Assembly (NCBI GenBank): GCA_018657885.1
Contig: JABHWG010000113.1
Coordinates: 1-32,839, forward strand
DNA length: 32,839 bases
Direction: 5' to 3'
Source of the DNA: Pelagibacteraceae bacterium
GTDB lineage: Bacteria > Pseudomonadota > Alphaproteobacteria > HIMB59 > GCA-002718135
This document shows, piece by piece, positions 3,808 through 22,012 of this stretch. Position 1 is the stretch's first letter, and each line of letters starts with the position of its first letter. The notes below the pieces were generated by a model, which was not told where the DNA came from, made no database searches, and saw only the letters and a program-made list of their open reading frames with translations. The translations under genes and the position numbers were made by a program.

Positions 3808-3826
3808 TTTTAGCAATATAGCTGTT

Positions 3827-4390: not shown

Positions 4391-5455
4391 TTATAAAGGT
4401 TGATATTTAATATCGTATTTAAAATATTTAGGACCAACTAAATCTATTGCTTCTTTTGATCGCCAAATTGGATCACAAGGAAGGCCTAATACATTTACTG
4501 AAAGACCGTACTTCATCACCTCAGTTGTTACTGGCTCACCTGTGTTTGCATCAAACAAACAAATTAAATCAGGTGTGGTTGCTAATACTTTATCTCCTTC
4601 CATTGCAATCAAGAATTCATTTTGAAAATCAAGTTTCGCGTTTCTTCCTGCAAAATCTCCTATACCTTCTAACTTTACGACTCCTCTTGTAAAACCTTCA
4701 CCTGCAGTTCTTTCAACATCTCTAACTCTAGCTTGAAATAAATGTTTTCCTTTCAATTCTTTTGCAAGTACTTGATATGCATTGAAAGAATGTTCCTTTA
4801 CAACACAACCGATATAATGAATTAAGGATAAACTATTTTTAATTAAATATTTTTTACACTCTTTAGCTGTCACTGGATATAAGCTCACCATAGCAGAACC
4901 GCCCATTTGAATTGTCAATGCTCTTGCTAATTTTTCTGTCCATTGATTACTGATAGTGTCAAATGTAGCCCCATTTCCTTTGTCATCAATCATTGCCATC
5001 GGAGTAGCTTTAATGCCACCTAATGTGAATGATACCATTTGTAATTCAGGAAATGCTCTACCCATTGCATCTCCGTCGACTATTGGTAAACCTAATTTTG
5101 CTGCAGCAACAAATGGAATAGTGGAGTTTAAACCACCTGCTTCAATGCATAAAATTGCAGCTACTTTTTTTTGCATTAATTTTTCCATCATCGAAACAAG
5201 TTGGGTAAATTCATTTCCAGAAGGAAATTTTTCCATCATGACTGTAGGTGCTCCCATCATCGCTATTGGAAGTATCAGCGCATCATCATCAAGTGTTTCA
5301 ACTTCTATTACTTTTACAGGATCAGCAGTTTCTAGACATTGATTAGTCATTAATCTTCCAACATAAGGATCTCCACCGCCTCCTGACCCAAGCACAGCTC
5401 CTCCAATCGCGATTGCTTCTAATTTATCTTTATCAACTGATGTAATTTTTTTCAT
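4391..5455 (-). CDS. DUF917 family protein
   Basis: A 354-residue cytoplasmic protein whose N-terminal glycine-rich stretch LGSGGGGDPYVGRL and later IEAGGLNS and DGDAMGRAFPE segments are characteristic of DUF917. Family members are often encoded beside HyuA-like genes, and one is found immediately upstream here, four bases away (5460-7001). It is the last gene of the six-gene minus-strand hyu operon. The biochemical role is not established. An inference from context is that it acts with the short HyuA-like protein as a two-part ATP-using enzyme, parallel to HyuA plus HyuB. No signal peptide or membrane segment is apparent. Confidence 0.85.
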   Translation of the reverse strand: MKKITSVDKDKLEAIAIGGAVLGSGGGGDPYVGRLMTNQCLETADPVKVIEVETLDDDALILPIAMMGAPTVMMEKFPSGNEFTQLVSMMEKLMQKKVAAILCIEAGGLNSTIPFVAAAKLGLPIVDGDAMGRAFPELQMVSFTLGGIKATPMAMIDDKGNGATFDTISNQWTEKLARALTIQMGGSAMVSLYPVTAKECKKYLIKNSLSLIHYIGCVVKEHSFNAYQVLAKELKGKHLFQARVRDVERTAGEGFTRGVVKLEGIGDFAGRNAKLDFQNEFLIAMEGDKVLATTPDLICLFDANTGEPVTTEVMKYGLSVNVLGLPCDPIWRSKEAIDLVGPKYFKYDIKYQPL

Positions 5456-5459
5456 TTAA

Positions 5460-7001
5460 TTATTTATTCTCCATCTTAAGATCACCAACAACAGTAACAT
5501 TTATTAATAAATTCTTACCTGGTAAATATGATAATGGCATATCGGACACTGCCAACAAATTAATCGTATCTGGATTGGCATTTCTTTTTATAGCAAGATT
5601 GGTTGCCTCATCTGTAACTTGTTTTATAGCAGTCTCCCTATCAATCTTGTCATCAATCAATATAACTTTTGATACTTGACCGCTGACCTGAGCTATTGCA
5701 GCACCAACTGCATTGGCTAAATCATTATGAGGTGGTTTTATAACATTCAGACCATCAATTTCATTATCAAGCATAACACTTCCACCACCAACAGCAATAA
5801 CAGGTATTTTTTCACTTGAAGTTCTTGCTCTCGCAACTTTATCTTCAACCATTTGATCCATTAAATTAATTATATTTTTTTTATTTTTTATTTCAGGAGC
5901 TTCTTTTGTACCTATCTTACATCTCCCATAAGAAACTGCTACATCACTTGCTGTAAGCACATCTCCTCCAAAAACTTTTGCCTTATCTGTTAATTCATGT
6001 CCAACTGATTGAGGACCTACTGTAATCTTCTCAGTATCAATTATAGAACCTCCTCCTAGCCCAAAACTGATTACATCTGGCATAGAAAAATTTGTTCTAA
6101 CATCTGCTACAGTAACATAAGTACCTGCTTGTCTAGGAAACCCATCCTTTACTTCTCCTACGTCAGTAGTAGTGCCTCCAACATCTACAACAAGTGCATT
6201 TTTTTCTTTAGATAAAAAAGCTGCGCCTCTCATTGAGTTGGTAGGTCCACAAGCAAAAGTAAGTACTGGTGAATCTATTACTTCAGAGGATTGAATTAGG
6301 GTACCATCATTTCTAGTAAAAAACATTGAGCATTTAAAATTCATTTTATTACGAAGTTCGTCAAATGACTCTACAACTTCTTTTGCTAATGGTTTTAAAG
6401 TTGCATTGATTAGGGTGGCGTTTTCTCTTTCTAACAATCCCATTCCACCAATATTTTTACTAAGAGAAACTTGTATATTTGGTGAATTTTTTTTTATTAT
6501 GTCAAAAGCTTCTTGCTCCATATCACCTCTCACTGTCGCAAAGACTGAACTTATGGCAATTTGATCACACCCTGCTTTTATTAATTCATTCAATGCAATA
6601 ATTATTTCTTTTTCATCTAATTTTGAAATCTCACTTCCATCCATTTCAAAACCACCTTTAACTAGTTGAAATTTTCCATTCATAGAATCAACTAATTCTT
6701 TTGGCCAATCAGCAAAAGGTAAAATAGACCCACCTGAAGGTAAACAAATTCTAATCAATCCTGTTTTAGCTAATTTTTTTCTTTGGACTATCGCATTTAC
6801 AAAATGAGTAGTGCCCACAATTAAGGCCTCAACATCTTTTGATTCTGTTTTAGCTTGATTAAGGGCAGCTGTAATTGCGTTTTCTACACCAGATAAAATA
6901 TCTTTAGTTGTAGGACTTTTTGCACCCCCTAAAAATTTTTCTGATTGCATTACTACTGCATCAGTATTTGTGCCTCCAACATCTACACCAATTCTTATCA
7001 T
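5460..7001 (-). CDS. Short hydantoinase/oxoprolinase (HyuA-like) protein, DUF917-associated type
   Basis: A 513-residue protein with the ASKHA-type (actin-like ATPase) signatures of HyuA: DVGGTNTDAVVM at the N terminus, the conserved HFVNAIVQRKKL segment, a second phosphate-binding loop VVDVGGTTTDVGEV, and GLGGGSII. It is some 170 residues shorter than the two full HyuA proteins nearby and lacks the long C-terminal domain that follows the FGGxG motif in those. This shorter type is usually paired with DUF917 rather than HyuB. It lies seven bases after hyuB2 and four bases before the DUF917 gene, so it is almost certainly co-transcribed with both. The substrate is unknown. Confidence 0.85.
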   Translation of the reverse strand: MIRIGVDVGGTNTDAVVMQSEKFLGGAKSPTTKDILSGVENAITAALNQAKTESKDVEALIVGTTHFVNAIVQRKKLAKTGLIRICLPSGGSILPFADWPKELVDSMNGKFQLVKGGFEMDGSEISKLDEKEIIIALNELIKAGCDQIAISSVFATVRGDMEQEAFDIIKKNSPNIQVSLSKNIGGMGLLERENATLINATLKPLAKEVVESFDELRNKMNFKCSMFFTRNDGTLIQSSEVIDSPVLTFACGPTNSMRGAAFLSKEKNALVVDVGGTTTDVGEVKDGFPRQAGTYVTVADVRTNFSMPDVISFGLGGGSIIDTEKITVGPQSVGHELTDKAKVFGGDVLTASDVAVSYGRCKIGTKEAPEIKNKKNIINLMDQMVEDKVARARTSSEKIPVIAVGGGSVMLDNEIDGLNVIKPPHNDLANAVGAAIAQVSGQVSKVILIDDKIDRETAIKQVTDEATNLAIKRNANPDTINLLAVSDMPLSYLPGKNLLINVTVVGDLKMENK

Positions 7002-7008
7002 TTATAAT

Positions 7009-8667
7009 TTATTTTTTATAACCGTAATATTTTTTTGCCTGTTCCTTAGTTATATATTGGTTTAGCAAATCACTTTTAATCATTTCTTTATTTCTTTTTT
7101 TAGGATCCCCAAAACCTCCACCATTACCAGTATAAATTCTTACAATATCACCTGGTTCTAAACCTAATCCAGTAACCACAGAATATTTTTCAATTTTTTT
7201 GTTTTTTCTAATTACCTCAATGTAGTTAGCACTTCCTTCTCTTCCTTTATTAAGCGACCATGGCAATGTTTTTGATCTTGTATAAGCAACTGAAACCCAT
7301 GCATTTTTTGATCTAACACGATAATCCATAATAATACCTTTGCCGCCATTGAATTTTCCTTCACCACCTTCTTGGTTGTTAAGTCTCATTTGATTAACAT
7401 ACAAACCATGTCTTGCCTCATGAATTTCTGCAGGAGTATTAAAAGTATCACCATGAAAGGCAGAAAAATTTGCACTCATTCCATCACCTGCAGCAGAAGC
7501 ACCCCATCCACCAATTTGAGGTTCGATAATAATAAAAGGTTCATTCGTATCAGGATGTGTACCTCCCATAAATGTCCCACATATAGAAGCAAAACTTCCA
7601 GCTGTTGATTTATCTGGATTAAGATGTGAGATTGTTTTCCAAATTAAATCATACGATCTAATATCAGTTTCATAATAAATACCTTGAGCTGCAGGTCTTA
7701 TTGGATTGAACATTGATCCTTCATCACAAATAACTTTAAGCGGTCTAAAAGTTCCAGCATTACAAATAAAATCACTTGAAGTAACGCCCTTGAAAGCCAT
7801 TTGAGCTGATACAACTGTCCCATCATAAGATGCATTATTAGGACCTGTGTCTTGTACTGGATTATTTCTTAAATCTACAATAAATTCTTTATTGGTAATT
7901 GTTACTTTTACTTGGATTTTTTTTCCATTATCCAAATAATCTTCTCCATAATACGTTCCATTTTTTAATTTTTTTAATGAATCTAATGATGAATTCTCTC
8001 CATATTCCATAAAAAGATCAACTGATTTTTCAAAAGTATCTCTGCCATATTTTTCTGATATATCCTTAATTCTTTTCTCTCCAACTCTTATGGATGCGAT
8101 TGCAGCCCACATGTCTCCTTTTGTATACTGAGGCACTCTACTATTAGAAATAATAATATCGATAACTGATTGAATTGGTTTTCCTTGATTAAATAATTTA
8201 ATAACTGGCAATTGTAATCCCTCTTGAAATATTTCTGTTGCATCTGCAGATATTCCACCTGGTGCCATTCCACCTAAATCAGGCCAATGTGCTATGTTTG
8301 CAGTCCATGCAATTCTTTTTTTTCCCGAGAAAACAGGCATCACAACTATAACATCATTTAAATGGGTTACCCCTCCATTATATGGGTCATTGGTTGCGAA
8401 AATATCTCCAGGATTTATATCCTTATCATCAAATTTTTTTAAAACTGCCTGAACAGCCTTATCACACATTGCAATAAAAGCTGGAATACCAGCACCTGAA
8501 GCAGCTATGTTTCCATTTGAATCAGTTACTGCAGTTCCAAAATCTAATACTTCATATATTATTGAACTCATTGCTGTTTTTCTCATTGCAATAAACATTT
8601 CATCACAAGCAGCTTGTAATGAGCTCTGAATTATTTCTACAGTAATCGGATCAATTTTTTTTGCCAT
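7009..8667 (-). CDS. hyuB: Hydantoinase B / oxoprolinase family protein (hyuB2)
   Basis: A 552-residue B subunit of the ATP-dependent HyuAB superfamily, which hydrolyses cyclic amides or carboxylates ketones after phosphorylation by the A subunit. It keeps the metal-site pattern Asp42, His102, Asp105 and His127 (VLDF, THLND, IAHWPD), with spacing like that reported for the caprolactamase B subunit. Other hallmarks are the N-terminal DPITVEIIQSSL and the C-terminal GNGGGFGDP. It belongs to a different subfamily from the other two B proteins here (shorter N terminus, NDPYNGGVTH in place of NSPYGTGSH). Its ATG overlaps the stop of hyuA2 by one base, so hyuA2 (8667-10739) is the obvious partner. 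Confidence 0.92.
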   Translation of the reverse strand: MAKKIDPITVEIIQSSLQAACDEMFIAMRKTAMSSIIYEVLDFGTAVTDSNGNIAASGAGIPAFIAMCDKAVQAVLKKFDDKDINPGDIFATNDPYNGGVTHLNDVIVVMPVFSGKKRIAWTANIAHWPDLGGMAPGGISADATEIFQEGLQLPVIKLFNQGKPIQSVIDIIISNSRVPQYTKGDMWAAIASIRVGEKRIKDISEKYGRDTFEKSVDLFMEYGENSSLDSLKKLKNGTYYGEDYLDNGKKIQVKVTITNKEFIVDLRNNPVQDTGPNNASYDGTVVSAQMAFKGVTSSDFICNAGTFRPLKVICDEGSMFNPIRPAAQGIYYETDIRSYDLIWKTISHLNPDKSTAGSFASICGTFMGGTHPDTNEPFIIIEPQIGGWGASAAGDGMSANFSAFHGDTFNTPAEIHEARHGLYVNQMRLNNQEGGEGKFNGGKGIIMDYRVRSKNAWVSVAYTRSKTLPWSLNKGREGSANYIEVIRKNKKIEKYSVVTGLGLEPGDIVRIYTGNGGGFGDPKKRNKEMIKSDLLNQYITKEQAKKYYGYKK

Positions 8668-10739
8668 TATTTTTTCTTTTGAGTGTTAATATGAAGATTG
8701 GCATAGTCATCAACTTTGCATCTTTGCCCAGGAAATACGACAACTGTTGTGCTAGAGTCTTCAACTATTGCTGGTCCATTAAAAACCATATTAGGTTCAA
8801 GTTTATCAAAATCGTATATATCTGAAATACGCTCTCCAAGTTGATCAAAATCAACTTTCCTTTTTGATTTAATTGCTTCTCTAACTTCTCTCCCTGTTTT
8901 TTTTCTTTTCTCCAGCTTGGGTTTTTCAATTTTAGCTACAGCAACTAGATGAAATTGTATAAGTTCTACAGGGTTATCTAAACTATAAGTAAATTCTTTT
9001 TCATACTGCTTATGAAAAGAAATAAGTATTTTATTTAGTTCTTTTTTATCATACGTACCACTAGGAAGTAAAACTTCTACAGAATGGTCTTGTCCCAAAT
9101 ATCTTAAACTAGCATAGCGCTGAAACTGAATTAAGTTTTTATGTATTTTTTCTTTTTTAAAATTAGAGATTGCTTTAGTTTCCATTTTTTTAAATGTTTC
9201 ATTTATTGAACCAAGTGAATCAATATCCATTTTATTTAGCTTAGTTAAAATAAAATCCCTTCTCAAGTCACTCATTAACATACCCCATGCTGAAAATACT
9301 GCAGAGTTTATGGGTATAATCACGTTAGGGATATTTAGTTCCATTGCTAAAGAGGTAGCGTGCATTCCACCACCACCTCCGAAAGCAACTAATGTAAAAT
9401 CTCTAGGATCATGGCCTTTGTTAACAGAAATTAATTTTAAAGCATTTGTCATATTATTATTTGCTATTCTAATAATACCTCTGGCAGTTTCAATTTTAGT
9501 TAATTTTAATTTTTTAGATAATGTGCTGATGTGTTTATCTACAGACTTAATATCAGCATTAACTTCTCCACCACAAAAATATGATGGATTTATTCTTTTA
9601 GTATATAAATTTGCATCAGTAGTAGTGATACTATTTCCACCTTTTCCATAAGATACAGGTCCTGGACTTGCACCTGCACTTTGTGGACCTACATGTAATT
9701 TTTTATAATCATCTACCCACGCTATACTTCCTCCGCCATTACCAATTTCAACAATATCTACAACAGGTAGCATTACAGGGTATCCAGCTGAGGTACGGTT
9801 TTTCTCGATCCAATAATTTGTATTAATTTTCACATTACCATCTTCTATTAATGAACATTTTGCTGTAGTGCCGCCAATATCAAGTGCTATAATATCTTTT
9901 ACTCCAATTAATTTTCCAATTTCAGCGGCTCCTAAAACGCCACTTGTTGGTCCAGATTCAATAATAGTTAAAGGTGTTTTTTTAGTACTTTCAAAAGTAT
10001 CTATACCTCCATTCGATTGCATGACATATGGATTGCCTTTAAATTTATATTTTTTAAGTTCAATAAATAAATTATCTAAATAATTTTTAGCTATAGGTTT
10101 CACATAAGCACAAAGTGCAGTTGTATTTGTTCTTTCATACTCTCTCCACTCCCTTGTAAGCTCACTAGAGGTAACTATTTCAAATTCAGGCCATTGTTGT
10201 TTTATTTTTTTTGCTAATACCTGTTCGTGTTTTGGATTTGCATATGAGTGTAGAAGGCAAATTGCAATTGATTTTACATTATGAGACTTAAATGATTTAA
10301 TAATTTTCTTAAGATCATTTAGCTGTAATTTTTCAATCTCCTTACCTAGAAAATCCATTCTACCAGGAACTTCAGTTCTTAGATATCTTGGAATAAATGG
10401 TTTAGGTTTTTTATAACGAAGATTAAAAAAATCAGGCCTATCTCCTCTTGCAATCTCTAAAGAATCTCTAAAACCTTTTGTAGTAATTAAACCTGTAACC
10501 GAACCTTTTCTTTCAGTTATAGAATTAATTATAACTGTTGTTCCATGTGCAAAAAATATAGCTTCAGAAATAGATATTCCAGATTTTTTTATAGCTTTAA
10601 ATACACCTTGTTCATAATTTGGAGGGGTGGTATCAGATTTTGCGTTAGAAATTTTTTTAGCTTTTTTTGTTTTTTCATCAATTTCAAAATAAACCAGATC
10701 AGTAAATGTTCCTCCAACATCTGTTGCCACTCTAATCAT
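8667..10739 (-). CDS. hyuA: Hydantoinase A / oxoprolinase family protein (hyuA2)
   Basis: A 690-residue ATP-binding subunit. Hallmarks in order: TDVGGTFTDLVYF at the N terminus, HGTTVIINSITERKG, REWREYERTNTTAL, the second phosphate loop ALDIGGTTAKCSL, GNGGGSIAW, GPQSAGASPGPVSYGKGG, and FGGGGGMHA. In family enzymes it uses ATP to activate the substrate (5-oxoproline, hydantoins, lactams, acetone or acetophenone, depending on the member). Two deviations from the usual family motifs are visible: GNGGGS where GAGGGS is typical, and FGGGGG where FGGAGP is typical; hyuA1 has the usual forms. The gene overlaps hyuB1 upstream by eight bases and hyuB2 downstream by one. Which compound it handles cannot be read from the sequence. 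Confidence 0.92.
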   Translation of the reverse strand: MIRVATDVGGTFTDLVYFEIDEKTKKAKKISNAKSDTTPPNYEQGVFKAIKKSGISISEAIFFAHGTTVIINSITERKGSVTGLITTKGFRDSLEIARGDRPDFFNLRYKKPKPFIPRYLRTEVPGRMDFLGKEIEKLQLNDLKKIIKSFKSHNVKSIAICLLHSYANPKHEQVLAKKIKQQWPEFEIVTSSELTREWREYERTNTTALCAYVKPIAKNYLDNLFIELKKYKFKGNPYVMQSNGGIDTFESTKKTPLTIIESGPTSGVLGAAEIGKLIGVKDIIALDIGGTTAKCSLIEDGNVKINTNYWIEKNRTSAGYPVMLPVVDIVEIGNGGGSIAWVDDYKKLHVGPQSAGASPGPVSYGKGGNSITTTDANLYTKRINPSYFCGGEVNADIKSVDKHISTLSKKLKLTKIETARGIIRIANNNMTNALKLISVNKGHDPRDFTLVAFGGGGGMHATSLAMELNIPNVIIPINSAVFSAWGMLMSDLRRDFILTKLNKMDIDSLGSINETFKKMETKAISNFKKEKIHKNLIQFQRYASLRYLGQDHSVEVLLPSGTYDKKELNKILISFHKQYEKEFTYSLDNPVELIQFHLVAVAKIEKPKLEKRKKTGREVREAIKSKRKVDFDQLGERISDIYDFDKLEPNMVFNGPAIVEDSSTTVVVFPGQRCKVDDYANLHINTQKKK

Positions 10740-12453
10740 TTAACACTACCTCAGGATAATATTTATTAATATATTCTTTAGATATATATTCTTGCTTATA
10801 GTCATCCAATACTTTTTCTTTTTGTCTTTCACTTGGATGTCCATAACCTCCTCCTCCTCCATTTTGTATCAAAACTTTATTTCCTTTTTTAATTAAAACT
10901 CTTGTGGCCTTTGGTATAGATTTTTTTGTTCCATCATCATTGATTAAGAAACAATTATTTGCCAACCCTTCCCTACCTTCATTTAAGCCCCAAGGCTCTA
11001 ACTCAGTTCTTTCACATACTGTAGTTGCAAAGGTATCCTCTAACATTTCTATTTCTATATTTACTCCTAATCCACCTCTATTTTTTCCTGCCCCACAGCT
11101 ATCTTGAATTAATTCTACACGTGTAACTAACCATGGATTCCGGTTTTCCCAAACTTCAGTGGGTGCAAACCTTGTTGCAGATTCTGCATGATGTAAGCAC
11201 GTTGCTCCATCTCCATGTACGCTACCACCTTGTCCTATAGGATGTGGAGATCCATCAGCCCAAGGCTCACCCGTTAACTTTTTTTGACCCCAATACACAA
11301 CAGCGTTTATACAACCACCACTACTAGCAGGAACTTTTTCTGGGTGCTTAGACCCAAGAGCCTTATAAAAAACTTCCATAGCTTGAAGTGCAGGCCATCC
11401 ATATAAGAAACACGGAGCAGGTGATAATGGATGAAAAAGCGTTCCTTTTTTTGTAATAACTTCAATAGGTCTAAAAAAACCTTCGTTAGGAGCTTCGTTA
11501 CTTCCTGCTAACATGCTCATAGCAACTCTTGCAGTTGATACTGTTGAAGGAAGAGGGCAATTAATTGGTCCATTTTGCTGAGGTGGAGCTTCTGACATAT
11601 CTAAAACAACTGAGTCATCTTTTATTAGGACTTTTACATCAAAGGGGACAGACCCTTCTTCAACACCGTTATTATCCATTTGCCCAGATCCAAAATATTC
11701 ACCATTAGGAATGTCTTTTAGATATTTTCTTACTATTTTTTCTCCTGCATCAAATATTTCTTCAACAGCTTCTCTAAATTTTTTTAATCCATATTTCGAC
11801 ACAACTCTTTTTAAAGCTCTCTCTCCTGTTCTTACACCTATCGCTTGAGCATTAATATCTCCTGCTACAGAGTTTGGAACTCTTGTATTAGCAATACACA
11901 TTTTAAAAATATCATTAACTAAATTTCCTTTACTATATAATTTAACCCCAGGATAAACTGTTCCTTCTTGAAAAACATCAACTGTATCTGTTGAGTAAGG
12001 TTCTTTACCTGCTATATCTAACCAGTGAGCTTTAATTGCAGTGTACGCAATTAGCTCTCCTTCAAAGAAAACTGGCATAACTAATGCCGCATCTTGTGGA
12101 TGTGAACCTGTGCCATATGGAGAATTATAAATTATAATATCTCCTTCATATAAGTTTTCCTCACCTCCAACACCTTTTACAGCCTCTTCAATGCAAAAGT
12201 TGAGAGTTCCCATAAAAAGAGGGAGGCTTGGAGCTTGTGATAACATTCTTAAATCTCTGTCATAAATTGCTGCAGCAAAATCTAATACTTCATAAATTAT
12301 AGGGGACATTGCTGTACGACATAACGCTCTTTTCATTTGTTCAGCTGCTGAGTTAAGACTATTTCGAACAATCTGAGTAGTGATGGGATCAACGTCAGTT
12401 TTTTGAACTTTTCTATCAATACCACATTTATAATGATGTAAATCTTTATTCAT
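10732..12453 (-). CDS. hyuB: Hydantoinase B / oxoprolinase family protein (hyuB1)
   Basis: A 573-residue B subunit with the metal-site pattern Asp58, His118, Asp121, His143 (VLDFAA, GSHPQDA, KAHWLD), family segments QQNGPINCPLPSTVS and SGGCINAVVYWG, and a C-terminal glycine loop QNGGGGGYGHP. Its ATG overlaps the end of hyuA1 by eight bases, making hyuA1 (12446-14491) its likely partner. It aligns almost without gaps to the divergent hyuB3 (14581-16287) over the whole length, so the two are recent or functionally close paralogues. It resembles the larger carboxylase/hydantoinase B type more than hyuB2. The substrate is unknown. Confidence 0.92.
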   Translation of the reverse strand: MNKDLHHYKCGIDRKVQKTDVDPITTQIVRNSLNSAAEQMKRALCRTAMSPIIYEVLDFAAAIYDRDLRMLSQAPSLPLFMGTLNFCIEEAVKGVGGEENLYEGDIIIYNSPYGTGSHPQDAALVMPVFFEGELIAYTAIKAHWLDIAGKEPYSTDTVDVFQEGTVYPGVKLYSKGNLVNDIFKMCIANTRVPNSVAGDINAQAIGVRTGERALKRVVSKYGLKKFREAVEEIFDAGEKIVRKYLKDIPNGEYFGSGQMDNNGVEEGSVPFDVKVLIKDDSVVLDMSEAPPQQNGPINCPLPSTVSTARVAMSMLAGSNEAPNEGFFRPIEVITKKGTLFHPLSPAPCFLYGWPALQAMEVFYKALGSKHPEKVPASSGGCINAVVYWGQKKLTGEPWADGSPHPIGQGGSVHGDGATCLHHAESATRFAPTEVWENRNPWLVTRVELIQDSCGAGKNRGGLGVNIEIEMLEDTFATTVCERTELEPWGLNEGREGLANNCFLINDDGTKKSIPKATRVLIKKGNKVLIQNGGGGGYGHPSERQKEKVLDDYKQEYISKEYINKYYPEVVLND

Positions 12454-14491
12454 TTTTCATTTTTGTGTCTGTAATAATTAAATGATCCATTTTATCTTTG
12501 TTAACTATATAATTTTTATCAACATAGGTAACAGCAGTACTTTCTAAAATGATAGCTGGTCCTGAAAATTCTTTATCAATTTGTGATCTTTGAATAATTT
12601 GAAATTCCTCAAGCTGATCTGAATCAAAAGAATAACATTTAATTTTATCATTTGCTGATATTGCTAATTCTTCATTAATCTTTCCACTTCCTGTTTTTCT
12701 TGGAAGAGGTACTCTTAAAGAAGCTCTAATTGAAACAATTTCTATAACCGTATCTAACTTACTACCAAATGTTTTTTCATAATCATTAACAAACATTTCT
12801 TTGATTTTGTCTACGTTGCAGGTAATTTTACCATTTTTTTCATCAATAAGTTTAAGTGTTATAGTGTGTTCTTGACCCATCCAACGCATATCTAAAGATA
12901 TTTCTTTTATTTTTTCTAAAATTTTAAAATTAATTTTTTGTCTGTCCTCCAAATCTTGAAACAATCTATCTAAAATCGTATTACATTGATCAAGAGATTC
13001 TTGACTTAGTCTTAAAATTTTTGTTTGAGCCGTCATCTGTAAAAGATCTGCACCTAGCAATCCCCATGCTGAAAAATTTCCTGAGAAAGGTGGTATAATT
13101 ATTTCTTTAATATCTAATTCTTTTGCAATTAAATTTGACATTAAAGGTCCAGCACCTCCAAATGCTAAAAGCTTTAATTCACGAGGATCAATACCTTGTT
13201 CAATTGTAATTTCTCGAATAGCATCAGCCATATTTGCACTACTTATTTTTAAAATTCCTTTAGCAACCTCAAATGCAGAAAGGTTAATTTTTGAACCAAC
13301 AGATTTTAGAGCATTTTCTGCTAAATCTTTTTTCAACTTTAGTCCAGAAGCTAAATTTCCTTCTCCAAGCATTCCTAAGTAAAAGGCTGCATCTGTTGTG
13401 GTTGGTTCTACACCTCCCCTTCCATAACAGGCAGGACCTGGTTGCGCTCCTGAACTTCTTGGTCCTGATCTCAATAAACTACCTTCATCAAGATACGCTA
13501 TTGATCCACCGCCAGCTCCAATAGATCTTACATCAACCCATGGGGATTGGATTGGCAGCCCAACTATCCTTCCTTCAAATTGTATTTGTGGCCTCCCATC
13601 TAAAATTAAACAAGTATCAAAACTAGTTCCACCTACATCAGCAGTAACCATATTAATATTTTTAAAGGTTCTCGATAATTCTCCTGCGCCTTCTGCTCCT
13701 GCTACTGGCCCTGACATGATAGTTTCAAAAGGTCTTTCTTCAGCTTCATCAAATGTCATTGAGCCACTCCCTGATCTTGTTACCAAAAAGTTACCTTTGA
13801 AACCTAAACTTTTTAATTCATTTCTTAGATTATTTAAGTAATTAGACATTCTTGCTTTTACAAAAGAGTCAATTACTGTTGTTGTTGTCCTTTCATATTC
13901 TCGGTACTCACCAGATACTACTGAGGACAAGGAAATATAGCCTTCAAATCCAAATTTTCTTAAAAGTTTTTCAATTTTTTTTTCATGATCGTTGTTTGCA
14001 TAAGAATTAATTAAACATACTGCAATACTTGTGACACCTTCTTTAATAAAATATTTACAAGCTTTTTTTATTTCATCTTCATTTAAAGATATATGCACAT
14101 CACCACTTGCAAACATTCTTTCATTTAGTTCTAACCGTAAGTATCTTGGAACTAGAGGTTCACTTGGTTGCCAAAACAAATTGTACATTTCATCTCTATC
14201 ACCCCTTCTTATCTCAATTACATCTCTAAAACCTTTTGTGCATAACATTCCTACTTTTGATCCTTTTCTCTCCAGTAAAGCATTGAGACCCACTGTTGTT
14301 CCATGTAAAAAAAAATCAATTTCTTTAATTTTTTGTTCGTTTAAATTTCTTTTAACAACCTCTATTACTGCTTTCTGAGGTTCTAAGGGTGTGGTGGGTA
14401 TTTTATCAATAGTAATTGAGTTATCTCTTTCATTGTACATAATGAAATCTGTAAACGTTCCCCCAATATCTACACCTATTCTTGATGCCAA
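12446..14491 (-). CDS. hyuA: Hydantoinase A / oxoprolinase family protein (hyuA1)
   Basis: A 681-residue ATP-binding subunit and first gene of the minus-strand operon. Motifs in order: GVDIGGTFTDFIMY, HGTTVGLNALLERKG, YREYERTTTTVIDSF, TADVGGTSFDTCLI, GAGGGSIAY, GPRSSGAQPGPACYGRGG, and AFGGAGPLMSN. All the usual HyuA signatures are present. The start is TTG, not ATG: it is preceded by a strong ribosome binding site GGGAGG (minus strand of 14501-14506) at nine-base spacing, and no ATG is available nearby. A LacI-type operator at 14530-14545 lies just upstream. Partner subunits are hyuB1 in the same operon and possibly the divergent hyuB3. Confidence 0.92.
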   Translation of the reverse strand: MASRIGVDIGGTFTDFIMYNERDNSITIDKIPTTPLEPQKAVIEVVKRNLNEQKIKEIDFFLHGTTVGLNALLERKGSKVGMLCTKGFRDVIEIRRGDRDEMYNLFWQPSEPLVPRYLRLELNERMFASGDVHISLNEDEIKKACKYFIKEGVTSIAVCLINSYANNDHEKKIEKLLRKFGFEGYISLSSVVSGEYREYERTTTTVIDSFVKARMSNYLNNLRNELKSLGFKGNFLVTRSGSGSMTFDEAEERPFETIMSGPVAGAEGAGELSRTFKNINMVTADVGGTSFDTCLILDGRPQIQFEGRIVGLPIQSPWVDVRSIGAGGGSIAYLDEGSLLRSGPRSSGAQPGPACYGRGGVEPTTTDAAFYLGMLGEGNLASGLKLKKDLAENALKSVGSKINLSAFEVAKGILKISSANMADAIREITIEQGIDPRELKLLAFGGAGPLMSNLIAKELDIKEIIIPPFSGNFSAWGLLGADLLQMTAQTKILRLSQESLDQCNTILDRLFQDLEDRQKINFKILEKIKEISLDMRWMGQEHTITLKLIDEKNGKITCNVDKIKEMFVNDYEKTFGSKLDTVIEIVSIRASLRVPLPRKTGSGKINEELAISANDKIKCYSFDSDQLEEFQIIQRSQIDKEFSGPAIILESTAVTYVDKNYIVNKDKMDHLIITDTKMKNE

Positions 14492-14500
14492 AATTTTTAT

Positions 14501-14506
14501 CCTCCC
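14501..14506 (-). promoter_or_regulatory. Strong ribosome binding site deciding a TTG start for hyuA1
   Basis: Read on the minus strand this is GGGAGG, followed after nine bases by TTG-GCA-TCA-AGA, which encodes the conserved HyuA N terminus. It supports initiation at the rare TTG codon (14489-14491). Confidence 0.75.
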
Positions 14507-14528
14507 AAAATAAAATATTTAAGTTTAC

Positions 14529-14547
14529 TATGGTAACGCTACCATGA
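14529..14547. promoter_or_regulatory. LacI-family operator 1 in the hyuA1/hyuB3 divergent promoter
   Basis: The sequence TATGGTAACGCTACCATGA contains the near-perfect palindrome ATGGTA-ACGC-TACCAT with the central CG dinucleotide typical of LacI/GalR-family operators. It sits 38 bp from the hyuA1 start and 34 bp from the hyuB3 start, where it could block both divergent promoters. The same 19 bases occur, reverse-complemented, at 16357-16375. The regulator is probably the LacI-family protein at 23108-24124. Confidence 0.8.
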
Positions 14548-14568
14548 TAGAAATATTAATTCAACAAA

Positions 14569-14577
14569 TATTATATT
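14569..14577 (+). promoter_or_regulatory. Candidate -10 element for hyuB3
   Basis: Overlapping TATTAT (14569-14574) and TATATT (14572-14577) lie directly before the ATG at 14581. If used, transcription would begin at or a few bases into the start codon. No convincing -35 is visible. Confidence 0.3.
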
Positions 14578-14580
14578 TTT

Positions 14581-16287
14581 ATGATCAGAACTTTTCAGTC
14601 TAAAACAAGTTATGAAAACATTGATGAAAACATTGATCCGGTATTAGTTGAAATAATCAGAAATAGTCTCAACTCAGCTGCTGAACAGATGAAGAGAGTT
14701 TTAATTAGAACTGCATTTTCTCCAATAATTTATGAGGTGTTAGATTTTGCAAGTGCAATTTATGATAAAAATTTTTGTATGCTTTCTCAATCACCAAGCT
14801 TACCTGGCTTTATGGGAACATTAAGTTTTTGTGTACAAGCTGCTGTAGAAGAAGTTGGGGGTGAAGAAAATTTATATGAGGGAGATATAATTTTATATAA
14901 CAACCCATATGGTTCAGGATCTCATTCTCAAGATGCAGCTATCGTTATGCCAGTATTTCTCAAACACAAAATATTAATTGGATACACAGCTATTAAAGCA
15001 CACTGGCTTGATACTGGTGGGAAGGAACCATACTCTACTGATACGGTTGATGTATTCCAAGAAGGAACTATTTATCCAGGTTTAAAGCTTTACAATAAAG
15101 GTCAACTTGTAGAAGACATTTATAAATTAATTGTCGCTAACTCACGAGTGCCTAAGGCTATAATTGGAGATCTTAATGCCCAATTAAATGGAGTCAAAGC
15201 GGGTGCTTCAGCTCTACAAAGGATTGTTAATAAGTTTGGTATTCAAACTTTTGATTCTTGTGTCTCTAAAATTTATCAACATGGAGAAAAATTGGTAAGA
15301 AAAACTATATCTAAAATACCTGATGGAAAGTATTCGGGATGGGGTCAAATGGATAGTAATGGTGTAGATAAGGATCCTGTTAAATTTAAAATTAATATAA
15401 ATGTAAAAGGATCTGATCTTGAGTTAGATTTTTCAGAAACTCCTGAACAACAAAATGGGCCAATTAATTGCCCTCTTCCTTCAACAGTTTCAAAGGCAAG
15501 AGTAGCATTCAGTATGATGGCTGGAAATGGAGAGCAGCCAAATGAAGGATTTTTTAAACCCTTAATTATTAAAACAAAACAAGGAACTATGTTTGATCCT
15601 ATTTCTCCTGCACCTTGCTTCTTAAATGGTTGGGCAGGGCTTCAGGTAATAGAAATAATATATAAAATATTGTCTGAAAAAATTCCTCACGCATTTCCTG
15701 CTTCAAGTGGTGGTTGTTTAGGAGCAGCAGTTTGGTGGGGTAAAAGAAAAAATAATAACGAGCCATGGGCTGACGGTTCTCCTCATCCAATTGGACAGGG
15801 AGGTTTTAATGGAGGTGATGGCATTACTTCGATGCATCATAATTCAGCTGGTACAAGAATCTCCCCAACAGAAATTTGGGAAAGTAGAAATCCTTGGCTA
15901 GTCAAAAAAATTGAATTAGCTCAAAATTCTTGTGGACCAGGAGAGTATAGAGGTGGTTTAGGTTTAGACCTAGAGTTTGAAATGTTAGAAGAAACATACG
16001 TAACTACAGTTGTAGAAAGAACTAAATTCCCTCCATGGGGTATAAATGAGGGAGGCGAGGGTAGAGCTAATAATGTAATTTTAAATAGAAAAAATGAATC
16101 TTCAAACGTACCAAAAAAAACAGGTTTGAAATTACATAAGGGAGATAGCTTGATCTTTAAAACAGGTGGTGGTGGTGGATATGGGAAATCATCATTAAGA
16201 TCAAATAAAAAAATTTTAAATGACTTAAAACAAGGTTACATATCCATTGAATATGCAAAAAAACATTATCCACAATTAAAAGTTTAG
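14581..16287 (+). CDS. hyuB: Hydantoinase B / oxoprolinase family protein (hyuB3), no adjacent hyuA on its strand
   Basis: A 568-residue B subunit with the metal-site pattern Asp55, His115, Asp118 and His141 (VLDFAS, GSHSQDA, KAHWLD), one residue longer between the last two than in hyuB1 because of an insertion near KHK. QQNGPINCPLPSTVS, SSGGCLGAAVWWG and the C-terminal TGGGGGYGKS are nearly the same as in hyuB1, so the two are close paralogues. The ATG at 14581 is the only suitable start: a TAA lies in frame at 14557 and no Shine-Dalgarno is visible. A tandem 12-bp repeat (14614-14637) gives ENIDENID near the N terminus. No hyuA follows it, so it may share HyuA1 made from the opposite strand. 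It leads the transporter genes. Confidence 0.9.
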   Translation: MIRTFQSKTSYENIDENIDPVLVEIIRNSLNSAAEQMKRVLIRTAFSPIIYEVLDFASAIYDKNFCMLSQSPSLPGFMGTLSFCVQAAVEEVGGEENLYEGDIILYNNPYGSGSHSQDAAIVMPVFLKHKILIGYTAIKAHWLDTGGKEPYSTDTVDVFQEGTIYPGLKLYNKGQLVEDIYKLIVANSRVPKAIIGDLNAQLNGVKAGASALQRIVNKFGIQTFDSCVSKIYQHGEKLVRKTISKIPDGKYSGWGQMDSNGVDKDPVKFKININVKGSDLELDFSETPEQQNGPINCPLPSTVSKARVAFSMMAGNGEQPNEGFFKPLIIKTKQGTMFDPISPAPCFLNGWAGLQVIEIIYKILSEKIPHAFPASSGGCLGAAVWWGKRKNNNEPWADGSPHPIGQGGFNGGDGITSMHHNSAGTRISPTEIWESRNPWLVKKIELAQNSCGPGEYRGGLGLDLEFEMLEETYVTTVVERTKFPPWGINEGGEGRANNVILNRKNESSNVPKKTGLKLHKGDSLIFKTGGGGGYGKSSLRSNKKILNDLKQGYISIEYAKKHYPQLKV

Positions 16288-16351
16288 AATTAATCAATTA
16301 TAAACCCTAAAATTTACTCTTTTGTACGTAAAAACAACATTGTTAAATATT

Positions 16352-16392
16352 TATATTCATGGTAGCGTTACCATACTGAAATATTTAGGAGG
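16352..16392 (+). promoter_or_regulatory. Promoter and ribosome binding site of the binding-protein gene
   Basis: TATATT at 16352-16357 is a candidate -10 whose transcription start would fall inside the operator at 16357-16375. AGGAGG at 16387-16392 is a consensus ribosome binding site four bases before the ATG at 16397; it fixes that start and rules out the in-frame TTG at 16322. This promoter assignment is tentative; the ribosome binding site is clear. Confidence 0.5.
16357..16375. promoter_or_regulatory. LacI-family operator 2 upstream of the binding-protein gene
   Basis: The plus strand reads TCATGGTAGCGTTACCATA, the exact reverse complement of operator 1 (14529-14547) across 19 bases. 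It ends 21 bases before the ATG of the binding protein, a position suited to repression. Everything downstream to the LacI gene appears to be one operon, so the regulator probably controls its own synthesis. Confidence 0.8.
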
Positions 16393-16396
16393 CAAA

Positions 16397-17977
16397 ATGA
16401 AAATATTTAAAATAAATATATTAGCTTTTTTAGTTACCTCATTATTTAGTTTTAGCATTTTTGCTGGGGGAACTCTAAGGCTAGACGAAGTTGCAATTGG
16501 GGAGGCGGACCCTGCAAAAGCTACCGACTTTGCTGATGGTATCATAATGGAGAATGTATATGACGCTCTTGTTACTGAACCTCAGGGTGGTGGACCAGTA
16601 ATTGGTAAACTAGCAAAGGACTGGGAAGTTAGCAATAATGGTACTACAATTACTTTTCATTTAAATGAAAATGTTAAATTCTCTAGTGGGAATGATATGA
16701 CTGCTGATGATGTAGTTTACTCTTATGAGAGATTAATGGGATTAAAACTTGGATGGTCATATCTTTTTGATGGTTGGGTTAAGGGAATAAAAAAAATAGA
16801 TAATCATAAAGTTCAATTTGAACTAAATGAACCTTACGCTCCTTTTATGTCCTCATTAGTTCGTTTTTATATTGTTGATTCAGAAACATTAAAAGCAAAT
16901 GAAAGTGATGGAGACTGGGGTCAGGAATATCTTCTTGCAAACTCAGCTGGTACAGGGGCATATTCAATTACTGCCCATGATCCAAATGTTGAAACAAGAA
17001 TGGCTAAAAACAATAACTATTTTTTAGGTATTGCTGAAATAGCTCCAAATGAAGCTATACTAAGATATAACTTAGATGCTCCAACTGTAAGAACTTTAAT
17101 TTCTAACGATGAGCATGACATAAGTAGTAACTGGCTACCTACAGATGTTAAAGCAGCAATTGCAGACTCTGGTGATAAGCTGGCAAAAGTAGTAAGTGCT
17201 GGTGGATGGTATTTTAAAATTAATACTACTAGAGCTCCATTAGATGATGTTAACTGTCGAAAGTCTCTTGCTTATGCACTTGATTATGACTCTCTTGTTG
17301 GAACTTTTCAAGTTACTGATGATATAGCTGCAGGTCAAAAAGCTAGAGGACCTATTCCTCAAGGAATGATTGGGTATTCTGATGATGTACCACTAGTGGA
17401 ATATAATTTAGATAAAGCTAAAGATTATTTATCTAAATGTAAGTACAGTGGTGATGATCTCAAAATTACTATTAATTGGATAGCAGAAGTTCCTTTTGAA
17501 GAATCATGGGCTCTAATTCTGCAACAAGGTGCTATGGCTATTGGTTATGAAGCTTCAGTAGAAACTTTACCATGGGCTGTTTTTACTGAGCAAGTTACTA
17601 AACCAGAAACAACACCAAATTTAAGTATTGTTGCAGTGCAGGCGCAGACACCTGATCCAGATGGATTAATATATAATATGTATCATTCTGCAGCAGCTGG
17701 TACTTGGCAATCTACTGAGTGGGTACAAGATGATAATATTGATTCAATGCTTAATGCTGGGAGAACAACGATTGATGGTCAAGAAAGAGTAGCCATCTAT
17801 GAAAGCTTTCAACAAGCTATTGTGGATATGCAACCAGACTTGTTCATTAGTGATTTAGTAACAGTATATGCTATGAGAGATGAAATCAATGCACCAACAC
17901 TTGAAGATTCAGCGACATATGGATTTTCAACTATGGCGCAAAACTTCTCTTTCAGATTAATGGAAGTTCCTAACTAA
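16397..17977 (+). CDS. ABC transporter substrate-binding protein, peptide/nickel/opine family (SBP family 5)
   Basis: A 526-residue periplasmic binding protein of the DppA/OppA family. The N terminus (Lys-rich start, then a hydrophobic stretch ending SIFA-GG) is a signal peptide with likely cleavage after about residue 23. Family segments include LAKDWEVSNNGTTITFHL, VKFSSGNDMTADDVVYSYER and GTGAYSI. The CRKSLAYALDYDSLV stretch matches the conserved central helix of the family. There is no lipobox Cys. The ligand could be a di- or oligopeptide, an opine or another small amide; the surrounding hyu genes suggest a cyclic amide or a peptide carrying one. It is separated from its permeases by a terminator-like hairpin, fitting the usual excess of binding protein over membrane parts. 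Confidence 0.93.
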   Translation: MKIFKINILAFLVTSLFSFSIFAGGTLRLDEVAIGEADPAKATDFADGIIMENVYDALVTEPQGGGPVIGKLAKDWEVSNNGTTITFHLNENVKFSSGNDMTADDVVYSYERLMGLKLGWSYLFDGWVKGIKKIDNHKVQFELNEPYAPFMSSLVRFYIVDSETLKANESDGDWGQEYLLANSAGTGAYSITAHDPNVETRMAKNNNYFLGIAEIAPNEAILRYNLDAPTVRTLISNDEHDISSNWLPTDVKAAIADSGDKLAKVVSAGGWYFKINTTRAPLDDVNCRKSLAYALDYDSLVGTFQVTDDIAAGQKARGPIPQGMIGYSDDVPLVEYNLDKAKDYLSKCKYSGDDLKITINWIAEVPFEESWALILQQGAMAIGYEASVETLPWAVFTEQVTKPETTPNLSIVAVQAQTPDPDGLIYNMYHSAAAGTWQSTEWVQDDNIDSMLNAGRTTIDGQERVAIYESFQQAIVDMQPDLFISDLVTVYAMRDEINAPTLEDSATYGFSTMAQNFSFRLMEVPN

Positions 17978-17987
17978 TATTATCTTT

Positions 17988-18021: not shown

Positions 18022-18026
18022 TTACA

Positions 18027-19046
18027 TTGAACATTAAACTTTATTTATTACGAAGATTTTATAGTGCAGCAATTGTATTAATTGGTGTTTCAATATTAAT
18101 ATTTATCATTGCCAGAATGATACCTGGTGACCCTGCAAGGATGGCATTAGGGCCAACAGCTACTCAAGAAATGGTTGAGAAATATAGAGATAAATTGCAC
18201 TTAAATGACCCTATTCATATTCAATATTGGTTTTTTATTAAAGGCATCACAAAGGGTGATTTAGGAGAATCAGTTTATACTAAAAGAAAAGTAACCACTG
18301 ATGTATCTACATACTTTCCAGCAACTCTAGAATTAATTATTTTTGCTTCTCTAATTATGATTTTTGTAGGAGTCCCTTTAGGGATATTAGCAGGAAGATT
18401 TAAAGACAAAGCAATAGACAATATATCAAGATTTATTTCCTTACTTGGGGTTGTTACACCCAGTTTTGTTTGGGCAGTTTTTCTTATGATTATTTTTGCT
18501 TTTTATTTAGATATTTTACCTGTTGCTGGCAGATTATCACAAGATACTGTTGCTCCTGAAAGAATAACAGGTCTGATAATTCTTGATAGCATCATTAGAG
18601 GTCAATTTAATGTAACGATTGATGCATTAAAACATATTATATTACCTGCTCTTGCTCTTTCACTTGGTGCTCTAGGACAAGCCTCGAGATTAACAAGGTC
18701 AAATATTACTGAGGTCTATGATAAACAATATATAGAAATGGCGAGAGCATATGGTTACAATGAATTTAAAATTGCAACTAAATACGCTCTTAAACCTGCT
18801 ATGATTCCGACTTTAACTATATTAGGTTTAGATTTTGCGGCTATGTTGGGAAATGCTTTTCTTGTAGAGTTTGTTTTTGCATGGCCAGGTATTGCCAAAT
18901 ATGGGGTTCAAGCAATTTTATATAAAGACCTTAATGCAATTACTGCCACAACAATGATAATAGCTACTTTCTTTGTTTTTACAAATTTAATTGTTGATTT
19001 AATAGTGGCATATCTAAATCCAAAAATTAGATTGAGTGGAAAATAA
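18027..19046 (+). CDS. ABC transporter permease, DppB/OppB type
   Basis: A 339-residue inner-membrane permease. The N terminus MNIKLYLLRRFYSAAIVL matches the family's YLLRR lead into the first membrane helix (about 11-31), followed by IPGDPARMALG. The ATPase-docking EAA loop is MARAYGYNEFKIATKYALKP (about 238-257). Five further hydrophobic segments follow the family pattern. The start is a TTG at 18027 with no obvious ribosome binding site; no ATG lies before the first helix, so TTG is kept with some doubt. It overlaps the next permease by one base (TAATG). Confidence 0.92.
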   Translation: MNIKLYLLRRFYSAAIVLIGVSILIFIIARMIPGDPARMALGPTATQEMVEKYRDKLHLNDPIHIQYWFFIKGITKGDLGESVYTKRKVTTDVSTYFPATLELIIFASLIMIFVGVPLGILAGRFKDKAIDNISRFISLLGVVTPSFVWAVFLMIIFAFYLDILPVAGRLSQDTVAPERITGLIILDSIIRGQFNVTIDALKHIILPALALSLGALGQASRLTRSNITEVYDKQYIEMARAYGYNEFKIATKYALKPAMIPTLTILGLDFAAMLGNAFLVEFVFAWPGIAKYGVQAILYKDLNAITATTMIIATFFVFTNLIVDLIVAYLNPKIRLSGK

Positions 19047-19891
19047 TGAAATTATTCAAATCTAGAGGCTGGTATAAATTTTCTAAAAATCCACTTTCTG
19101 TTTTAGGCTTATTAATTGTTTCATTAATAGTTTTGATGGCAGTATTTGCAAATTATTTAACTCCATTTCCTGAGCATGCAGGGCCTTTTGTAGATATACC
19201 AAATAAAATTAAATCTCCTTCATCAACTTACTTTTTCGGTACTGACAAGATTGGAAGGGACTCTTTTTCAAGGATAATTTTTGGATACAGAACATCGCTA
19301 TATTTAGGTGTAATTGTTTTATGCATTGCTGTTCCAATTGGAACAAGTCTTGGTTTAGTTGCTGGATATTTTGGAGGAAAAATAGATGCTATAATAATGA
19401 GAATAACAGATATTTTTTTATCAATTCCTCCACTTGTATTAGCTTTATCAATAATGGCATTTTTAAAACCTACTTTAACTAACGCCATGATAGCTGTATC
19501 AATGATGTGGTGGCCTTGGTATACTCGACTAGTCTATAATTTAACAAGATCTATTAAAAATGAAGGTTTTGTTGTTTCTGCTAGAATAGTTGGCGCTTCT
19601 AATTTTCATATTATTTTTAAAGAAATTTTACCTAATTGTAGCGCTTCACTAATTACAAAAATTACCTTGGATATGGGCTTTGTTATCTTAATAGGCTCAT
19701 CTCTTAGTTTTTTAGGCTTGGGTGTTCAACCTCCCACTCCAGATTTAGGGACAATGGTTTCACAAGGATCAAAATATTTACCTGATATTTGGTGGTTGTC
19801 AGTATTTCCTGGTCTAGCAATTTTAGTCATAGTACTTGGTTTTAACTTGTTAGGGGATGGTCTTAAAGATTTATTCGATGTAGAGTTATGA
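19046..19891 (+). CDS. ABC transporter permease, DppC/OppC type
   Basis: A 281-residue second permease. After one N-terminal membrane helix (about 18-37) and a periplasmic loop comes the family signature FFGTDKIGRDSFSRIIFG (about 63-80), then four to five helices. The EAA loop is SARIVGASNFHIIFKEILPN, and FLGLGVQPPTPDLGTMV near the C terminus is diagnostic of DppC-type subunits. Start and stop codons overlap the neighbours on both sides (one base upstream, an ATGA overlap downstream), so translation of the transport genes is tightly coupled. Confidence 0.94.
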   Translation: MKLFKSRGWYKFSKNPLSVLGLLIVSLIVLMAVFANYLTPFPEHAGPFVDIPNKIKSPSSTYFFGTDKIGRDSFSRIIFGYRTSLYLGVIVLCIAVPIGTSLGLVAGYFGGKIDAIIMRITDIFLSIPPLVLALSIMAFLKPTLTNAMIAVSMMWWPWYTRLVYNLTRSIKNEGFVVSARIVGASNFHIIFKEILPNCSASLITKITLDMGFVILIGSSLSFLGLGVQPPTPDLGTMVSQGSKYLPDIWWLSVFPGLAILVIVLGFNLLGDGLKDLFDVEL

Positions 19892-20742
19892 CAATACTTT
19901 CTATTAAAAATCTAGAGGTTAAATTTAAGCATTTTGAAGGAATTACAACTGCACTAAAAAAAATATCATTAAATATAAAACATGGTGAAAAAGTTGCATT
20001 GGTAGGAGAATCTGGTTCTGGTAAATCTGTTACAGCTAGAATGATATTAGGATTATTATCTAATCCAAATATTAAAAAAAGTGGAGAAATATTTTTCGAA
20101 AACAAAGACCTTTTGAAAGAAAGTAGTTCACAAATAAAAAAAATTCGAGGTAACGATATATCAATGATTTTTCAAGACCCAGTCTCATCCATGAATCCCT
20201 TTTTTACTGTAAGAAAGCAAATGTTACAGGCACTAGAAAATCATAACAAAAACTATGATAAAAAAAATATAGATGAATATTTTATTAATCTTCTTCGTGA
20301 TGTAAAAATTGAAGACCCTCAAAGAGTTCTTAATTCATACGCTTTCCAATTAAGTGGGGGTATGGCTCAGAGAGTAATGATCAGTATGGCTATGATTAAC
20401 AAGCCAAAATTAATACTCGCAGATGAACCTACAACCGCTTTAGATGTTACGGTTCAAAAAACAGTATTAAAAATAATGAAAGAAATAATTAGTCAAAAAA
20501 AAATGTCTATGTTGTTGATTAGTCACAACTTGGGGGTTGTAAGAGAATTTGCTGATAGAATTTATGTAATTTATCAAGGATCGATTTTAGAAGAAGGAAC
20601 CACTGAGCAAATTTTTAATTCACCAGGACATATTTATACACAAACACTTTTACGAGCTATTCCTAAAATCAATAGTTCACAACTACCTAGTCTTAATGCT
20701 GAAAATATTAATTATTTAAGCCAACCTAAATTTACTCATTAG
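19888..20742 (+). CDS. ABC transporter ATP-binding protein, DppD/OppD type
   Basis: A 284-residue ATPase. Walker A GESGSGKS (40-47), Q-loop FQDP (Gln96), signature LSGGMAQR (155-162), Walker B LILADEP (175-181) and H-loop His213 are intact, so it should be active. It is shorter than typical DppD proteins (E. coli DppD about 327 residues): the C terminus stops after PKINSSQLPSLN and lacks the usual extension with its Cys motif. This suggests a trimmed subunit, not a broken one, since the core is whole and the second ATPase is also short. Confidence 0.94.
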   Translation: MTILSIKNLEVKFKHFEGITTALKKISLNIKHGEKVALVGESGSGKSVTARMILGLLSNPNIKKSGEIFFENKDLLKESSSQIKKIRGNDISMIFQDPVSSMNPFFTVRKQMLQALENHNKNYDKKNIDEYFINLLRDVKIEDPQRVLNSYAFQLSGGMAQRVMISMAMINKPKLILADEPTTALDVTVQKTVLKIMKEIISQKKMSMLLISHNLGVVREFADRIYVIYQGSILEEGTTEQIFNSPGHIYTQTLLRAIPKINSSQLPSLNAENINYLSQPKFTH

Positions 20743-20744
20743 AT

Positions 20745-21527: not shown

Positions 21528-22012
21528 ATAAATTAGAAAAAGAAATTTATAATATTTATTTAAAATATGAGAGCCATGAAACTGTCATTAAAAAAGTAGT
21601 TGCATTAATACGCAAAGAAATAGGTTTCAAGTTATTAACTTTCATGATTTTTAGTAACAATCAAAAATTTGCAAAAAGAATATATTCTTCAGATGAAAAT
21701 AAATATCCAATTGGCAAATCTAAAAAATTACCAAACAATTATTGGGCTGTTATGACTGTACAAAAAAGACGCTCTTTTATTGGTAATAACAAAAAAATAA
21801 TAGAAAAATATTTTTATGATCATAAAATCATTACTTCACTTGGCTGTGAAGCAATTCTTAATCAAGTTGTAACTTATAATAAAAAAACTATCGGATGTAT
21901 TAATATTTTACACAAAAAAAACTATTTTACAAAAATACATCAAGAGAAAATGAATATTATTTCAAAGTGTGTAGTGGCTCTTTTCTTAGATAAACAAAAG
22001 GAAATTAAATAA
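21524..22012 (+). CDS. Stand-alone GAF-domain protein
   Basis: A 162-residue cytoplasmic protein made almost wholly of one GAF-like domain: an N-terminal helix, a LIRKEIGFKLLTFMIFS strand, and the C-terminal core LGCEAILNQVVTYNKKTIGCINILH with its usual strand-turn-strand shape. GAF domains bind small molecules. No output domain (kinase, cyclase, helix-turn-helix) is attached. Start overlaps the ATPase gene by four bases and stop overlaps the M24 gene by one, so it belongs to the operon. It may sense the imported compound or help handle it; this is inference from context only. Confidence 0.7.
   Translation: MNKLEKEIYNIYLKYESHETVIKKVVALIRKEIGFKLLTFMIFSNNQKFAKRIYSSDENKYPIGKSKKLPNNYWAVMTVQKRRSFIGNNKKIIEKYFYDHKIITSLGCEAILNQVVTYNKKTIGCINILHKKNYFTKIHQEKMNIISKCVVALFLDKQKEIK

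Follow-up and report, generated by a model that had tools for sequence, protein, structure and literature searches.

We propose that HyuA1 may serve as a common ATP-binding subunit for two metal-site subunits, HyuB1 and HyuB3, encoded on opposite strands of one locus, and this sharing is the reading best supported by the sequences compared. In its full form, with hyuB3 an old and functional paralogue of hyuB1, HyuA1 common to both, and A1B1 and A1B3 ring-opening enzymes that would differ in substrate, the proposal stands in our judgement at about even chances. Two functional copies of the B subunit, together with a single matching ATP-binding half, point to a shared A subunit that serves enzymes of two specificities. 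The mechanism would be that of the known superfamily; the subunit ratio is what is unusual. To our knowledge, descriptions of Hyd enzymes in the literature give one A and one B subunit.

The window, meaning the whole stretch of 32,839 nucleotides that was analysed, belongs to a marine alphaproteobacterium with a draft genome of 1.63 Mb that is 84% complete; the nearest named records are single-cell genomes and MarineAlpha5 bins. Leftward from a divergent promoter run hyuA1-hyuB1-hyuA2-hyuB2, the genes of a short HyuA-like protein, of a DUF917 protein and of an Lrp-type regulator, and putA; rightward run hyuB3, dppA-B-C-D-F-like transporter genes, and the genes of a small protein, of an Xaa-Pro-type peptidase of family M24 and of a LacI regulator (Table 1). 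All PF02538 genes of the source genome, exactly three, lie inside the window. hyuA1 starts at a TTG codon with a GGGAGG ribosome site 5' of it, and its product carries the P1 (DIGGTFTD), P2 (DVGGTSFD) and GAQPGP motifs as well as the interface segment ERMFASG. hyuB1 overlaps hyuA1 by 8 nt and, on its opposite side, hyuA2 by 8 nt; hyuB3 diverges from hyuA1 and is the first gene ahead of the transporter genes. The start of dppA was moved from 16322 to 16397 in favour of an AGGAGG with ATG and a signal-like N terminus. The top NCBIfam model for the M24 peptidase is PepQ, at a score under the PepQ cut-off. The small protein (about 162 aa; window 21524-22012), whose gene adjoins that of the peptidase in these cassettes, has no Pfam match.

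Table 1. Positions of genes and regulatory elements in the window
Feature	Position	Strand	Basis
PutA (proline dehydrogenase/P5C dehydrogenase)	769..3816	-	NF008869 above cut-off
S-Me-THD-like (DUF917) protein	4391..5455	-	Pfam
Short HyuA-like protein of 513 aa, encoded as partner of the DUF917 protein	5460..7001	-	Pfam, motif check
hyuB2, B partner of A2 (33% identical to B1 and B3)	7009..8667	-	Pfam and similarity
hyuA2, HyuA of a different type, full-length (36% identical to A1)	8667..10739	-	Pfam and similarity
hyuB1, metal-site subunit	10732..12453	-	PF02538, E 1.4e-154, full-length Hydantoinase_B
hyuA1, full-length ATP-binding subunit	12446..14491	-	PF05378 and PF01968
Divergent intergenic region hyuA1/hyuB3, 89 bp	14492..14580		
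Perfect LacI-type operator TGGTAACGCTACCA, palindromic	14531..14544		motif search
hyuB3, second metal-site subunit, B1 type	14581..16287	+	PF02538, E 8.1e-151, full-length
Second operator copy TGGTAGCGTTACCA	16360..16373		23 nt 5' of likely dppA start 16397
dppA-like solute-binding protein	16397..17977	+	SBP_bac_5
dppBCDF-like peptide-type ABC transporter	18027..21527	+	ORFs and similarity
M24 Xaa-Pro-type peptidase	22012..23115	+	PF00557 and PF01321
LacI-family regulator	23108..24124	+	PF00356

An earlier note on this DNA had described hyuB1 and hyuB3 as near-duplicates on opposite strands that align nearly gap-free with the same metal-site residues. Coordinates and strands are as it gave them, the alignment is indeed nearly gap-free (61.0% identity over 551 aa, 2 gap openings), and the metal-site residues are common to both (D58, H118, D121 and H143 in HyuB1; D55, H115, D118 and H141 in HyuB3). 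The term near-duplicate is too strong for a pair with 61% amino acid and 69% nucleotide identity: judged by sequence, the two are old paralogues whose split predates the divergence of the two genera carrying both, and a recent duplication is ruled out by the identity level and the tree. HyuB2 is only 33% identical to either. The Asp-His-Asp-His tetrad is kept in all orthologues aligned (8/8 for HyuB1, 7/7 for HyuB3); the metal ligands of CapB are Asp41, His99, Asp102 and His124, each essential as shown by mutation (PMC8453981). The insertion near residues 128-130, also proposed as a place where the two subunits differ, is a single residue in a beta-hairpin turn between strands 118-127 and 131-141 of the AF2 model of HyuB3 (pLDDT 79.9; top PDB folds NMHase 9h03 and CapB 6yra). 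Its presence in only two of the seven HyuB3 orthologues, those of the window and its nearest relative, rules it out as a specificity switch. Over the orthologues aligned, HyuB1 and HyuB3 share 565 columns, of which 253 are invariant and 64 show fixed differences. Four positions taken from the published CapB pocket list distinguish HyuB1 from HyuB3 in every orthologue aligned (62, Leu/Gly; 368, Val or Ile/Ala; 411, Ala/Asn; 468, Cys/Val), and this consistent difference makes distinct specificities plausible; in HyuB1 and HyuB3 of the window the residue pairs are L79/G76, V385/A383, A423/N421 and C480/V478. The pocket gives no signal of enrichment for B1/B3 differences (4/14 vs 117/565 overall, Fisher p = 0.50).

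Of hyuB1 and hyuB3, only hyuB1 adjoins a hyuA on its own strand, as had been noticed before: hyuA1 overlaps hyuB1, and the strand of hyuB3 has none. The window also encodes another complete A-B pair, A2/B2, and the short HyuA that accompanies the DUF917 protein. This short HyuA is without the GxxPGP motif and lacks the greater part of a segment that borders the A-B interface (named in PMC5214803), so the realistic partners of HyuB3 are HyuA1 and HyuA2. The DUF917 protein and the short HyuA (window 4391-7001) probably make up an enzyme of their own that has no B subunit; further short HyuA genes occur at other places in related genomes. As between the two full-length A subunits, relatedness favours HyuA1. 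HyuB3 does not fall among B subunits with a distinct HyuA type of their own, the outcome that would have spoken against sharing; the phylogeny places it with HyuB1 and with B proteins present in one copy, next to an A subunit of the A1 type in their operons. Since the nearest B proteins outside stand in single A-B operons with an A1-type A, HyuA1 is the likely partner of HyuB3.

We searched 162 genomes of the order for B genes. The genomes are drafts, 56-93% complete, which bears on all absence counts. The full B3, B1 and B2 set is present in 11 of them, and a twelfth cassette is split by contig ends. The layout hyuB2-A2-B1-A1/hyuB3-dppABCDF is kept in related genomes of two genera, with B3 head-to-head with A1 and adjoining dppA in all cassettes read. 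Each complete cassette has three B genes and, as full-length A genes, A1 and A2 only; none has an A gene for B3. A1 and A2 are likewise the sole full-length A genes of the B3-bearing genomes, except for one (G1118) with an extra A and B elsewhere; the genomes being drafts, a distant A gene could be missed. B3 was not seen apart from the cassette set in the 162 genomes, and one genome (G020) has A1-B1 without B3. The dN/dS of hyuB3 is 0.04-0.13, as expected under purifying selection and similar to the neighbouring genes, which rules out a pseudogene; hyuB3 is a real and conserved gene and, from these comparisons, very probably a functional one. Three congeners without the cassette (G022, G024 and G030) have a locus with a single A-B pair, the small protein, the M24 peptidase, cis-3-hydroxyproline dehydratase and putA.

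Proteins of the B1/B3 type are found outside the order in 1 of 385 genomes of the class (G392) and on Allorhizobium/Agrobacterium and Ketogulonicigenium plasmids; viral contigs gave no relative. Each outside locus read is a single A-B pair of the B1/B3 type, with an A subunit 52-53% identical to A1 and 33-34% to A2. The closest outside relatives, the single hyuAB operons of Allorhizobium ampelinum and Ketogulonicigenium vulgare, encode B proteins with 57% and 55% identity to HyuB1 and 54% and 52% to HyuB3, respectively; unlike the cassette, they have one B gene on the same strand as A. The best tree joins HyuB1 and HyuB3 as sisters and places the Rhizobiaceae/Rhodobacteraceae B proteins outside them (support 81), and an earlier tree with fewer and more distant outgroups placed HyuB3 outside (support 90). 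None of the three orders of B1, B3 and outgroup is rejected in the AU test.

Within the enzyme family the B subunits dimerise centrally and the A subunits bind outside, and it is from this architecture that a mixed core, the heterotetramer A1-B1-B3-A1, arises as an alternative to two separate enzymes. CapAB is an (AB)2 assembly whose B-B core is formed from CapB residues 129-174 (PMC8453981); the dimer face so defined is 75% identical between HyuB1 and HyuB3, with mostly conservative fixed changes, and two tandem A-B-B loci elsewhere have B pairs of about 60% identity. The occurrence of A1-B1 without B3 in G020 and of a single B in the outgroups nonetheless indicates that B1 alone suffices there, the position of hyuB3 on the opposite strand leaves equal amounts of the two subunits unenforced, and the metal sites are complete in both. 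We regard a mixed core as possible though unlikely. The wider claim, in which the three proteins would be one asymmetric enzyme for (hydroxy)proline cyclic dipeptides and A-B-B loci would represent an undescribed subunit architecture, we consider quite unlikely.

That HyuB3 pairs with HyuA2 or with an A subunit encoded elsewhere appears distinctly improbable. hyuA2 does lie near hyuB3 in the same locus, a counterpoint to the sharing of HyuA1, and the genomes are drafts; yet HyuB3 is 61% identical to HyuB1 and 33% to HyuB2, the partner of A2, A2 is 36% identical to A1, B1/B3-type proteins elsewhere are partnered by A1-type A subunits, and most genomes with B3 have no further full-length A. Work without an A subunit, be it metal-dependent hydrolysis of a pre-activated or easy substrate or a regulatory role, would fit a protein with a complete metal site and no cognate A, but is very improbable given that the sampled B genes are mostly fused or adjacent to A and that ATP-site mutants of CapA lose nearly all activity (PMC8453981). 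Finally, the lower conservation of B3 relative to B1 in most orthologue pairs might be taken as the mark of a redundant or decaying duplicate, a notion made scarcely credible by an intact gene in 11 genomes, invariant metal ligands and purifying selection at dN/dS well below 1.

The combination of one A gene with two B genes recurs elsewhere. New here is the recurrence of an A-B-B arrangement in two further alphaproteobacteria (L123 in G116, L124 in G140) among twenty B loci read from other members of the class, most of them plain A-B pairs; L123 and L124 were picked for adjacent B genes. They resemble the window in having one A and two B genes about 60% identical to each other, and differ in being tandem on one strand and in encoding B proteins only about 30% identical to HyuB1 and HyuB3, so that the duplications are independent of the B1/B3 one. 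On this comparison, sets of one A and two B genes arose at least three times. In L124 and in a further locus (L116), Glu aligns with the third metal ligand in place of Asp.

Among characterised systems, the caprolactamase CapAB of Pseudomonas jessenii (PDB 6YRA) has the same division into an A with ATP motifs and a B with an Asp-His-Asp-His site, and CapB shares the fold of the HyuB3 model (TM 0.86). It differs in having one A and one B, as (AB)2, where the window has two B per A1; CapB is about 24% identical to HyuB3, with other pocket residues, and the window proteins stay far below the CapA/CapB NCBIfam equivalog cut-off of at least 1000 bits (B1 266, B3 219, A1 450). The top match to HyuB3 in sequence and fold is the ATP-dependent N-methylhydantoinase (PDB 7HK5, 9H03), whose A and B parts are fused into a single polypeptide of about 1280 residues; such fusion, as in 5-oxoprolinase/N-methylhydantoinase, is absent from the window, where A and B are separate ORFs. 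Acetophenone carboxylase (Apc), with two A-type and one B-type subunit (PMC5214803), gives a superfamily precedent for unequal subunit types, although its A/B ratio is the opposite, it has extra small subunits and its B subunit is larger; the window B proteins score 72-78 bits with the ApcD model, whose cut-off is 1500, and are about 570 aa long, outside the acetophenone/acetone carboxylases. Sequence and fold features of Hyd alpha-beta enzymes are present in HyuB1 and HyuB3 (PF02538 fold, Asp-His-Asp-His tetrad) and in HyuA1 and HyuA2 (DxGGTxTD, DxGGT, GxxPGP); the short HyuA is without GxxPGP. Adjacent hydA-hydB order is seen for A1-B1 and A2-B2; the departure of hyuB3, divergent from hyuA1, is one of layout and not of protein family.

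The suggestion that both B subunits stand under the same operator holds in part. A LacI-type operator does lie in the region between hyuA1 and hyuB3, but in the LacI-bearing clade only, and the single-operator picture needs the further correction that a second copy precedes dppA. Beyond these two the window holds no exact copy of the motif; at two mismatches or fewer there are three matches, against 0.40 expected. Among the loci read, operator copies are restricted to close relatives carrying the LacI gene, the sister clade being without both, and from this co-occurrence the LacI-family regulator of the cassette is the probable binder of both operators. The clade without LacI (L023, L025-L028) has another conserved palindrome-like motif, of the CTATCAGATGATAG type, near hyuA1 in the hyuA1/hyuB3 intergenic region, which suggests another regulator.

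With HyuA1 as the ATP-using subunit common to HyuB1 and HyuB3, phosphorylation of the substrate or of bicarbonate would be the task of HyuA1, and, on the model of caprolactamase, the activated intermediate would be handed to the metal site of either B1 or B3; A1B1 and A1B3 would then be two ATP-dependent ring-opening enzymes with different substrates. Transcription of hyuB3 would run toward the transporter genes and that of hyuA1-B1 oppositely, in this clade from one LacI-controlled divergent promoter, so that shared subunit, second B and importer would be induced together. The substrates are probably proline-type cyclic compounds: gene neighbours, the sole basis here, lead us to infer that they release proline or 3-hydroxyproline. 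Sister-clade cassettes adjoin a gene for cis-3-hydroxy-L-proline dehydratase, which scores above its NCBIfam cut-off, and in most cases putA too, and the window genome has putA nearby and no detectable hydroxyproline dehydratase. The last gene of the Allorhizobium operon encodes a trans-3-hydroxy-L-proline dehydratase, and a Parageobacillus plasmid operon (A 52% identical to A2) continues with Xaa-Pro peptidase, pruA and proline dehydrogenase. Cyclic compounds of proline or 3-hydroxyproline are thus the likely substrates, with proline-containing cyclic dipeptides as the most natural guess, and the M24 peptidase would release (hydroxy)proline from the opened rings; our literature search found no paper on cyclic-dipeptide hydrolysis by an ATP-dependent HyuAB.

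A conserved set of one A and two B subunits, with at least three separate duplications, has importance in suggesting that specificity could widen by swapping the metal subunit alone, and it offers a clean system for how the A-B tunnel and the B pocket set substrate choice. For Hyu proteins known by family name only, the neighbour genes suggest (hydroxy)proline-derived rings, possibly cyclic dipeptides.

Two observations on loci of related genomes deserve mention in their own right. Between L023 and L027 (about 7200-16200), a block of A1, B3 and dppA-D is 65-86% identical and the remainder about 90-100%, as by allele exchange, strongest at the solute-binding protein; the joint exchange of A1 and B3 as one unit speaks for their partnership, although it may reflect adjacency alone. 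In L021 (about 15000-20296), the transporter genes lead on to atpG-D-C, and lacI and pepQ are inverted, unlike in relatives, an arrangement that is probably a chimera of single-cell amplification.
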